NCBI GenBank assembly: GCA_018267825.1
Contig: JAFDXR010000012.1
Coordinates: forward strand, 1 to 64,000
Direction of reading: 5' to 3'
DNA length: 64,000 nucleotides
Source: Bacteroidota bacterium
GTDB lineage: Bacteria; Bacteroidota; Bacteroidia; B-17B0; Aurantibacillaceae
Translations under genes and position numbers: made by a program
The notes under the pieces: model-generated
Told to the model about the DNA's origin: nothing
The model's input: only the letters and a program-made list of their open reading frames with translations
Databases searched by the model: none
In this document: piece after piece, positions 3,351 to 6,348 of the stretch
Numbering within the stretch: position 1 is the first letter of the stretch
How the letters are laid out: each line of letters begins with the position of its first letter

Positions 3351-4049
3351 ATGTCTGCAAGAAAAAAGATAGTGGTATTCAGTGGCGCTGGAATGAGCGC
3401 TGAAAGCGGCATTCAGACATTCAGAGACAGTGGTGGTTTGTGGGAAAAATATCGTATAGAAGATGTGGCAACGCCGGATGCCTGGCATAAGAACCCTGAG
3501 CTGGTGCTCGATTTCTACAATCAGCGTCGCAAACAGATCATACAGGCGCAGCCCAATGAAGCGCACCGCATGGTGGCGCAATGGCAGGAGTTTTTTGATG
3601 TTCAGGTTATTACTCAGAATATCGACGATCTGCATGAACGCGCCGGAAGTAAAAAGGTACTTCACCTGCACGGTGAGATTATGAAGGCCCGCAGCACCAG
3701 AGACCCCGATCTTTTGTATCCAGTGAGAAGCGGAGAAATCAGGATGGGTGATGTATGCGAAACAGGCGCGCAGCTTCGTCCGCATATTGTCTGGTTTGGT
3801 GAACTGGTGCCCGAAATGGAAAATGCCGCACTGCTGGTATCGCAGGCTGAGATTTTTGTAACGATCGGCACGTCGCTGAACGTATATCCCGCCGCCGGCC
3901 TGATCAGTGTAAGCCCGGATCATGTCACAAAGTACCTGGTTGATCCAGGAACATTCAACCTCGACTACATTAAAAATCTCTCACATATCAAAATGGGGGC
4001 AGTCGACGGTATAAAGCATTTAACCGACGTTTTAAAAGCATTATTGTAA
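3351..4049 (+). CDS. cobB: Sir2-family NAD-dependent protein deacylase (CobB-like)
   Basis: The protein removes acyl groups from lysines using NAD+. Numbering from the ATG at 3351 (MSARKK), the NAD-binding motif GAGMSAESGIQTF is at 12-24, TQNID at 88-92, and the catalytic His of HLHGE is His107. The YxxR signature of class III (desuccinylase-type) sirtuins is present as Tyr56 and Arg59 in FYNQRR, as in E. coli CobB and SIRT5. The four zinc-binding cysteines of CobB are missing; there is a single Cys at 136. I recall this from other Bacteroidota sirtuins. Nine upstream in-frame codons were left out because MSARKK is the natural start. The stop overlaps the next start as TAATG. Confidence 0.9.
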   Translation: MSARKKIVVFSGAGMSAESGIQTFRDSGGLWEKYRIEDVATPDAWHKNPELVLDFYNQRRKQIIQAQPNEAHRMVAQWQEFFDVQVITQNIDDLHERAGSKKVLHLHGEIMKARSTRDPDLLYPVRSGEIRMGDVCETGAQLRPHIVWFGELVPEMENAALLVSQAEIFVTIGTSLNVYPAAGLISVSPDHVTKYLVDPGTFNLDYIKNLSHIKMGAVDGIKHLTDVLKALL

Positions 4050-5269
4050 TGAGTTCAAGTTCAAAAATAAAATGCCCGAATTGTCAACATGAATTTGAGG
4101 CGACAGACGCATTCCGTGATGAGATACAGCAGGAATTAAAAACCAAAATGCTGGAATGGCAATCGCGTAAGGAAGAAGACTACAAGCGTAAAGAAGAGAA
4201 TTTTCAGAAGCAGTTGAGTGATTCGCTCGCCAGGCAGAAACAGGAGATGGAAGAGAATATCCGCAAATCTGTGGGCAACGACTATGAGAATAAACTGAAA
4301 CTGCTGATGGAGACCAATATAGCCAATGAAGAAAAGCTGAAAGAGGCCAGGCAGCAGCAAATGGAGTTTATGCGTAAAGAACAGGAACTCAAAAACAAAG
4401 AAGCTGAACTGGAACTGACCCTGCAAAAGAAACTTCAGGAAGAGCGGAATGGGCTCACCGAGCAAATCCGCAAACAGGAAGCAGAACGTACGGCACTGAA
4501 AGAAAATGAATACCAGCTCAAACTCAAAGAGCTCGAAAAGCAGGTTGAGGATCAGAAGAAACTGGCCGAAGAAATGAAACGCCGGGCCGAGCAGGGTTCC
4601 ATGCAATTGCAGGGTGAGGTGCAGGAACTGGCACTGGAAGAACTTTTAAAGGCCTCGTTTCCATTCGATCTGATCGAGGAAGTAGGCAAAGGCGTTCGTG
4701 GCGCGGATGCCATCCAAACCGTGCGAAACAGTCTCGGGCAAAATTGCGGTAAGATTATTTATGAAAGCAAACGCACCAAATCGTTCAGCAATGAATGGAT
4801 CGAGAAACTGAAAGCCGACATGCGCTCGCAACAGGCTGATGTAGCGATACTGGTCACAGAGGTAATGCCAAAGGAGATGAATCATTTTGGGGAAAGAGAC
4901 GGCATCTGGATCTGTAGTTTTACCAATGTAAAAAGCGTTGCCTACCTGTTGCGGGATGCGATCCTGAAAATATTTGCGGCCACACGTTCCCAGGAAAACA
5001 AAGGTGATAAAATGACCATGCTTTATGATTACCTTACCAGTCGCGAGTTTTCGGAGCAATGGAGTGCCGTTCAGGAAGGGTTCAGAAGCATGAAGCTATC
5101 GATACAGAAAGAACGCGATGCGATGGAGAAACTCTGGAAGGCCCGCGAAAAACAACTGGAAAAAGTATTGCTCAATGCAACTCATATCAAAGGCTCTATT
5201 GAGGGGATTGCCGGACAGGATAATATAGATCTGAGCCTGGGCGGCGATGACGATCTGCTGCTTGAATAG
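4049..5269 (+). CDS. DUF2130 domain protein with N-terminal zinc ribbon and coiled coil
   Basis: Residues 1-20 contain KCPNCQHEFEA, a CxxC knuckle. Residues 25-190 are a long charged coiled coil. Residues from about 190 to the end match DUF2130, with ELALEELLKASFPFDLIEEV, KIIYESKRTK and WIEKLKADMRSQQADVAILV. The last region (IIYESKR, later QADVAILVTE) resembles a PD-(D/E)xK nuclease core, which is an inference. The start codon overlaps the sirtuin stop (TAATG), so the two are translationally coupled. Function unknown, cytoplasmic. Confidence 0.85.
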   Translation: MSSSSKIKCPNCQHEFEATDAFRDEIQQELKTKMLEWQSRKEEDYKRKEENFQKQLSDSLARQKQEMEENIRKSVGNDYENKLKLLMETNIANEEKLKEARQQQMEFMRKEQELKNKEAELELTLQKKLQEERNGLTEQIRKQEAERTALKENEYQLKLKELEKQVEDQKKLAEEMKRRAEQGSMQLQGEVQELALEELLKASFPFDLIEEVGKGVRGADAIQTVRNSLGQNCGKIIYESKRTKSFSNEWIEKLKADMRSQQADVAILVTEVMPKEMNHFGERDGIWICSFTNVKSVAYLLRDAILKIFAATRSQENKGDKMTMLYDYLTSREFSEQWSAVQEGFRSMKLSIQKERDAMEKLWKAREKQLEKVLLNATHIKGSIEGIAGQDNIDLSLGGDDDLLLE

Positions 5270-5339: not shown

Positions 5340-5835
5340 GTGGTATTGAATGGGATAAAAATGTTTGACTCCTCGGGAGCCACTTGAGGTTATTCATGTT
5401 ATGATTAAGAATATCCAGCCCCTCCGGGGCTGCTGTGATTGGATTGATTATCTGAATTTTCCAGTATGAAAGTTCATGTAAGATGCGTGATCCATGGCCC
5501 CGGCGGGGCCAAATATTATTAACTACCATCAGTTATGTCTCTCTCATTGCTCCGTAGGAGTAAAACATTAACACATCCGGATTTACCACAAAGAAAAAAA
5601 CTAATCCGGGATATGTTCGACTCCTCCGGAGCCGCAGGCAGTACAATCGTGTCTGCTTTTGTTAATAATGTTAAACCCCTCCGTGGTTGCCGTGTGTAAG
5701 GTTAGTGTGCCCATTCCCTTTTTATTGATCATGAAGGTTCAGGTAAAATGTATATAATCTCTGGTTCCTATGGGACTAAATATTATTAAGAACACATCCT
5801 TGTTTAGCTCTTTGCTTCATCGGAGCAAAACATAC
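5340..5835. repeat. Tandem pair of palindrome-rich non-coding units
   Basis: This gene-free stretch (the gap runs 5270-5952) holds two diverged copies of a 250-267 bp unit, and each unit has four short palindromes in the same order. The first is GACTCCTCGGGAGCC at 5367 and GACTCCTCCGGAGCC at 5619. The second is AGCCCCTCCGGGGCT at 5417, with a degenerate partner at 5674. The third is GGCCCCGGCGGGGCC at 5496, then AAATATTATT, with GGTTCCTATGGGACT at 5763 then AAATATTATT. The fourth is TTGCTCCGTAGGAGTAAAAC at 5547, with TTGCTTCATCGGAGCAAAAC at 5812. Short GGAG/CTCC palindromes like these are scattered between genes in many Bacteroidota; their role is not known to me. No coding frame is convincing here. 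Confidence 0.75.
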
Positions 5836-5880
5836 GTATATCCCGATATATGCCAAAACAATAATTCATTCGCAAAAATA

Positions 5881-5912
5881 AAAATGGCCGGAAGAAATTC
5901 CGGCCATTTTTT
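5881..5912. terminator. Strong bidirectional terminator
   Basis: A perfect 13-bp stem (AAAATGGCCGGAA with TTCCGGCCATTTT) around a GAAA loop, with A- and T-runs on the two sides. On the minus strand it lies 40 bp after the cytochrome lipoprotein stop. Confidence 0.85.
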
Positions 5913-5952: not shown

Positions 5953-6348
5953 TTATGGATTCGCCATTTTCATGGCCAGTACATATTTCAGTACAGCATC
6001 TTTTTGTGTGTCACTGATTTTTGCTTTTGTTGCCATGCGGTCAATAATGCCGGGCCATTCTTCAGCACTACGCTTTGTTATGTTTTTAGGGCCATGGCAA
6101 CCTGTGCAGGCACCTGACTGATACAGATCTTTTCCTTCATTGATAGTTGCAGCGGTTATATCCGGCCATTTGCTTTTAGCAATGTTTACCAGGGTCTCTG
6201 TGCTGGGTGCAGCTGAGCTACTGCTGGCGGTGCTGCTTCCGCTGCCTGAAGTAGAAGAAGATGAACTTGTGGTAGCCGATTTAGACGAGTGGCAGGCTAA
6301 AAAAATACCTGCAGATAATATAGCAACGAAAAGATAAGATAATTTCAT
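5953..6348 (-). CDS. Cytochrome c-type lipoprotein
   Basis: A signal peptide with lipobox (IFLAC, Cys19) is followed by a linker of about 30 residues that is nearly all Ser, Thr, Gly and Ala. A small haem c domain then follows with one CxxCH motif (CTGCH) in LYQSGACTGCHGP. A Met-rich C-terminus (MATKAK, MKMANP) could supply the distal haem ligand. It is probably a membrane-tethered periplasmic electron carrier. It is divergent from the 2-oxoglutarate oxygenase gene, with a 14-bp palindrome between them. Confidence 0.85.
   Translation of the reverse strand: MKLSYLFVAILSAGIFLACHSSKSATTSSSSSTSGSGSSTASSSSAAPSTETLVNIAKSKWPDITAATINEGKDLYQSGACTGCHGPKNITKRSAEEWPGIIDRMATKAKISDTQKDAVLKYVLAMKMANP

Follow-up and report, generated by a model that had tools for sequence, protein, structure and literature searches.

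The hairpin array analysed here occupies about 5358-5834 of a 64-kb window (the whole stretch of contig JAFDXR010000012.1 under study, 64,000 nucleotides), and its closest described counterparts are the repetitive extragenic palindromes (REPs), with their bacterial interspersed mosaic element (BIME) and REP doublet (REPIN) arrangements, which are associated with REP-associated tyrosine transposases (RAYTs; TnpA_REP, class 2). REP populations are regarded as dependent on RAYTs, and some insertion sequences (ISs) insert into REPs. The REP literature that was found deals with GTAG and CGTC repeats and with RAYTs. Transposases of the IS200/IS605 family act on single-stranded DNA in a strand-specific manner, binding hairpins located at the ends of the element, as PMC8266576 describes for IS608 and ISDra2. 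For TnpA_Y1 enzymes of subclass 1.2, which carry the signature DH[VIL]H, WQ and Y---Q--HH, PMC6006769 enters 'no' in the REP column of its Table 1. The array is best explained, at a probability of about 0.7, as the orphan, non-autonomous part of a REP-like system served by an IS200-class TnpA (Y1, HUH) of subclass 1.2, with a mobility that I infer; its observed basis is a family of repeats with paired stems and a pitch of ~50 nt, and a dense clustering of similar hairpins close to subclass 1.2 genes of related genomes.

A dispersed family of paired hairpins

The initial annotation had reported, for 5340-5835, two copies of a block of four palindromes in the same order. All eight palindromes were located, in the order A-, B-, C+, D+ both times (signs giving the strand) and with offsets from copy 1 to copy 2 of 252, 257, 267 and 266 bases for A, B, C and D, so that the block is real while its bounds are better set as above. 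Scores were taken from R1, a covariance model built from 58 distinct host-genome elements (68 raw hits, less 6 that were overlapping, on the opposite strand or unrelated, gave 62, less one out of register 61, of which 58 were distinct). Copy 1 consists of hairpin A (5358..5391, minus strand, GGCTCC-cga-GGAGTC with the tail AAACATT; 34.5 bits), B (5408..5441, minus, AGCCCC-gga-GGGGCT; 35.7 bits), C (5486..5519, plus, GGCCCC-ggc-GGGGCC with the tail AAATATTATTAA; 41.6 bits) and D (5538..5571, plus, TTGCTCC-gta-GGAGTAA with the tail AACATTA; 34.8 bits). Copy 2 continues with A (5610..5643, minus; 35.5 bits) and B (5665..5698, minus; 35.1 bits), so that six of the eight hairpins score 34.5-41.6 bits, and ends in decayed forms of C (5753..5786, plus, GGTTCC-tat-GGGACT; 11.1 bits) and D (5812..5833, plus, GCTTC-atc-GGAGC; 10.5 bits), which were assigned by position and by homology to other units because their R1 E-values are 2.6 and 3.6. 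The junction of the two units (5572..5609) contains, from its sequence, an inverted repeat of its own, ATCCGGATT ... AATCCGGGAT, and a second junction type found elsewhere in the host genome contains TTCGCAAGTTCAC and its reverse complement; because both types hold inverted repeats, the junctions between units are palindromic too.

A BLASTN search with the block returned 39 matches in the host genome, that of a Bacteroidota-like bacterium (33 contigs, 4.82 Mb in total, 100% complete), and a search with R1 at E<=1 found 95 hairpins in 16 clusters without a single isolated element, the array of the window being one of these clusters. Each element has a G/C-rich stem of 5-7 bp, a loop of mostly 3 nt and a 3' tail AA(C/T)ATT, and belongs to one of the subtypes A, B, C and D. 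This tail, in the loose pattern A-A-(C/T)-A-T-T, is present in 91 of 97 distinct host elements and on all four types, so that AAATATTATT is no peculiarity of the third palindrome. The usual unit, A-, B-, C+, D+, has a length of about 215 bp, copies differ in their number of hairpins, and an end-to-end alignment of 16 units showed that conservation extends to AATGTT at the left edge and to AACATT at the right. Inverted pairs of hairpins are present, yet the constant spacing is that within same-strand doublets: of 43 pairs of same-strand neighbours, 40 have a spacing of 48-56 nt, and for inverted neighbours of the - + type the distance is 76-89 nt in 13 cases out of 24. What had been described as a structured unit is thus dispersed, as predicted, and is made up of two doublets of same-strand hairpins, inverted relative to each other, instead of one structure. 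Twelve of the 16 clusters overlap no open reading frame (ORF) of at least 90 aa, and the remaining four overlap only ORFs of 93-135 aa.

The arms had also been said to differ by compensating changes in several cases, which was generous for the window itself, where two-sided compensatory changes between the copies number two (B pair 2 and C pair 3) and one-sided changes five, four of which retain a G.T or G-C pair while one (B pair 5) breaks pairing. Across the genome covariation is strong, and the proposed selection on pairing is borne out: in an alignment of the 97 distinct elements, fitted to the structure, 94.1% of cells pair and 116 show two-sided changes, where shuffles give 39.9 (none of 500 as high), and sliding the partner by one column lowers this count to 27. 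A smaller seed set gave 65 two-sided changes against 24.3 in shuffles, and 65 distinct elements of relatives paired in 97.1% of cells, with 95 two-sided changes against 28.6. A lone block, with neither further copies nor an excess of compensatory changes, is not what was found, because the genome holds 95 hairpins in 16 clusters and their stems covary strongly. Wobble pairs read in the tail-3' orientation are G.T in 29 and A.C in 3 cases in the host unit alignment, and 5 and 4 in relatives (an alternative host count, 43 against 11, leans on seeds chosen with G.T allowed); as proof of one active strand this bias was rejected since relatives do not share it, and it remains a hint. Pairing of A with D across the unit was likewise set aside as a case of covariation, its sole variable pair being GC in 5, AT in 5, AC in 5 and GT in 1, with no clear association.

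Like REPs, these elements are short intergenic palindromes in inverted clusters with covarying stems. A canonical REP/RAYT system is rejected on account of the foot of the stem, where neither GTAG nor CGTC was found on either strand in any of the 97 distinct elements, and of the class of the enzyme.

Subclass 1.2 genes beside hairpins in relatives

Searching 87 genomes of the family, host included, R1 hits at E<=0.01 were obtained in 25, namely in 22 of the 45 genomes whose Y1 match is strong (E<=1e-14) and in 3 of the 42 others (Fisher p 1.4e-5). Comparing the lists of R1 and Y1 matches showed that R1 hits adjoin Y1 genes at seven loci, which encode proteins of 153-156 aa with the motifs DH[VIL]H, WQ and YIxxQ..HH and so bear the signature of published subclass 1.2 (~153 aa), but differ from it in the hairpin arrays at their flanks, PMC6006769 listing this subclass as having no REPs. 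Two of these proteins score 77.4-78.8 bits with NCBIfam NF033573 (IS200/IS605; cut-off 55) and 31.9-40.3 bits with NF047646 (REP-associated; cut-off 80), and their sequence matches among solved structures include that of the ISHp608 transposase. IS608 and ISDra2, whose TnpA is of subclass 1.1, share with these loci the transposase family and hairpins that lie beside the gene and on its strand; unlike them, the loci described here have many hairpins on each side, gene-free arrays dispersed over the genome, and divergent paralogs instead of identical IS copies. TnpA_REP subclass 2.6 (RAYT group 5) is similar in that PMC6006769 places it in Bacteroidetes, with 'atypical secondary structures' beside the gene and copies elsewhere, but the proteins of its class have a YIH[QN]NP motif; the enzyme was ruled out as a member of subclass 2.6 by its subclass 1.2 motifs.

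From ~150 Y1 matches in the family, 87 loci were taken, 67 of them stronger (nearly in order of E-value) and 20 weak, with ~25 others below 1e-13 lying outside the set. By motif, 58 are subclass 1.2 (Y---Q--HH), 20 class 2, two class 1.1-like and seven unassigned variants or truncated; L118, placed in class 1.1 by the motif rule, has a start resembling subclass 1.2, and both L118 and L093 are counted among the 67. Around the 58 subclass 1.2 genes there were 2.26 hairpins/kb within 500 bp against 0.13/kb at 1-1.5 kb, whereas the 20 class 2 loci are without this type of hairpin (0.15/kb near the gene, and, as a control in the scan for hairpin spacing, 3 such hairpins in 83 kb). A second set, of 80 named loci, was the top 80 among 584 ranked by similarity to a single gene that had been chosen for its adjoining R1 hits. 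These loci come from Flavobacterium, Chryseobacterium, Pedobacter, Dyadobacter and others, and some of the records bear the labels Ignavibacteria, Verrucomicrobia or Poribacteria; overall, the subclass 1.2 taxa sampled are mostly Bacteroidota. Here, the first 100 bp held 83 hairpins in 7924 bp upstream (10.5/kb) and 97 in 8000 bp downstream (12.1/kb), compared with 8 in 64722 bp (0.12/kb) and 3 in 71784 bp (0.04/kb) at 1.5-2.5 kb, and a stricter stem rule still gave 1.41 hairpins/kb near the gene and 0.14/kb far from it. Under a looser rule, at least one hairpin lay within 400 bp in 78 of 80 named loci and at least two in 77 of 80, with hairpins on both sides in 54 of the 73 with full flanks; for the family set the figures were 50 of 65, 43 of 65 and 18 of 62. 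Shuffled loci held 6 hairpins where real ones held 244, and 15 where real ones held 446. The nearest upstream hairpin shares the orientation of the gene in 59 cases and opposes it in 10, and among adjacent hairpins less than 200 nt apart a pitch of 45-54 nt was found in 82 of 153 pairs at the 67 family loci and in 160 of 279 at the 80 named loci.

The stems follow the enzyme. Across 128 of 144 loci (16 without hairpins were left out, and L173, with an upstream flank of 35 bp, was excluded from the comparison), transposase similarity correlated with shared stems (Mantel r 0.42), and still did so when pairs were limited to a similarity of 0.45-0.7 (r 0.21), with 0 of 2000 permutations as high each time. 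Paralogous subclass 1.2 genes within one genome have different flanking stems (genomes G050, G057, G058 and G070), and in G041 the gene is flanked by two arrays, 93% identical to each other, with hairpins that are found again on six further contigs. A gene with flanking palindromes, in which palindrome and enzyme co-evolve, resembles the REPtron-like unit of REP/RAYT systems. At two loci from different genera (L082 in G070 and L083 in G057) a subclass 1.2 gene and its hairpins precede the same gene, presumably a topoisomerase subunit to judge from its protein sequence, and the hairpin tail reaches right to the start codon; this shared site suggests long vertical inheritance at one place.

Weighing the readings

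The initial annotation had suggested a check for a linked IS200/RAYT transposase elsewhere in the genome. IS200-class genes are indeed linked to such hairpins in relatives, but their enzymes are not RAYTs, and the host genome has no Y1 transposase: a PF01797 profile search gave no match at E<=0.001, although 57 of the 87 family genomes do match, and a search with an alignment of subclass 1.2 transposases found neither a gene nor a remnant at E<=10 (the profile search found matches in relatives; the alignment search of the host had no positive control of its own). The missing gene and remnant weigh against an array served by a subclass 1.2 TnpA, as do several observations in relatives. The genome G067, second highest in R1 hits (43), has a single subclass-1.2-like gene, and the stems beside that gene, GATCCC, are unlike those of its dispersed arrays; the gene flanks of G053 have no blastn copies elsewhere in the genome and those of G070 a single copy of 24 nt; and a distant branch of subclass 1.2 (the MSYLKIW, MAFVKVW and MPYTKIY types) is poor in CC-closed hairpins. 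Since the 80 named loci were picked by similarity to a hairpin-flanked gene, they do not give the strength of the hairpin link for the whole subclass, nor did the data reveal an empty site, a target rule or movement. Many R1-type arrays without a matching transposase were seen in G067 (L253-L258), and this genome of another genus is possibly a second orphan case.

It is possible, though on balance doubtful, that the arrays are bidirectional transcription terminators or protectors of mRNA 3' ends, conserved in that capacity, with the transposase as past history. Such a role would fit the six terminator-like sites in 711 bp, where 0.7 are expected, five of which coincide with hairpins of the array or overlap them (loose scan); the heuristically called neighbours of the 15 arrays that have genes on both sides, which are convergent in eight, co-directional in seven and divergent in none; and the G.T excess among host wobbles. 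That excess is not seen in relatives, however, the hairpin tail has few consecutive Ts, being of the kind AAATATTATTA or AACATTTTTA, and a terminator would not be expected to crowd at one type of transposase in many lineages, to have stems that track the transposase or to keep a pitch of ~50 nt. A secondary role of the hairpins at 3' ends is possible within the transposase-served system as well. Improbable, in turn, is a transposase that is an ordinary IS inserting into hairpin repeats already in place and not serving them. While the many loci with hairpins on one side, and the mismatch between arrays and gene-flanking stems in G067, would fit such an insertion, the different stems beside paralogs of one genome, the stem similarity that tracks protein similarity and the orientation of the nearest upstream hairpin with the gene would not, and the flanks in G053 and G070 come close to hairpins found only beside the gene.

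That the unit is a single structured RNA is very improbable, even though one strand can form one long fold and the quartet folds far better than shuffles (z -5.71 as RNA; z -3.23 for a 501-nt region as single-stranded DNA). When 16 of the 18 units were aligned by homology without regard to structure (C20 and C27b, not complete quartets, were left out), the local hairpins paired in 97.6% of cells and the cross pairs of the long fold in 93.8% (A-D) and 88.9% (B-C). Moreover, A and B lie on one strand and C and D on the other, the number of hairpins varies, and no Rfam covariance model matched above its gathering score in the 64-kb window.

In the transposase-served reading, two same-strand elements ~50 nt apart form a doublet and two opposite doublets a unit. 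By analogy with the TnpA of IS608 and ISDra2, the enzyme would bind the hairpins in single-stranded DNA, where one TnpA dimer may hold a same-strand doublet, and inverted doublets would offer a substrate whichever strand is single. TnpA may in this way have moved or amplified units, repeated excision and joining would gain or lose doublets, and a host that later lost the enzyme, or never fixed it, would be left with orphan arrays. Held with somewhat less assurance, if still favoured, is the wider proposition that subclass 1.2 TnpA run a REP-like system of their own across Bacteroidota and neighbouring lineages, in which transposase-specific arrays of ~50-nt pitch spread non-autonomously and can outlive the enzyme. 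The literature searched, whose coverage left out most subscription journals and supplementary files, yielded no description of hairpin arrays with subclass 1.2, and the accessible parts of PMC3733652, PMC2817692 and PMC12306157 describe no arrays with these enzymes. If this is true, REP-type populations would have arisen in each of the two main divisions of the Y1 transposase tree and not only with RAYTs. A second class of enzyme, nearer to true IS200 transposases, is seen here in the same relation to hairpin repeats, which corrects the published 'no' for subclass 1.2. The fixed spacing of the hairpins suggests a defined nucleoprotein complex, cognate pairs of enzyme and substrate are available for in vitro tests, and intergenic hairpin arrays in these bacteria would gain an annotation.

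Surroundings of the array

No tRNA gene was found in the 64-kb window. To the left of the array lies a DUF2130 gene on the plus strand (4049..5269; Pfam PF09903, 232.6 bits), and to the right a convergent gene on the minus strand (5953..6348) with a weak cytochrome-c-like match to PF13442 (24.6 bits, below the cut-off of 27). Between the array and the right-hand gene, a perfect 14-bp inverted repeat (5880..5911), terminator-like and followed by T-rich sequence, probably serves as the true terminator for the two convergent genes.
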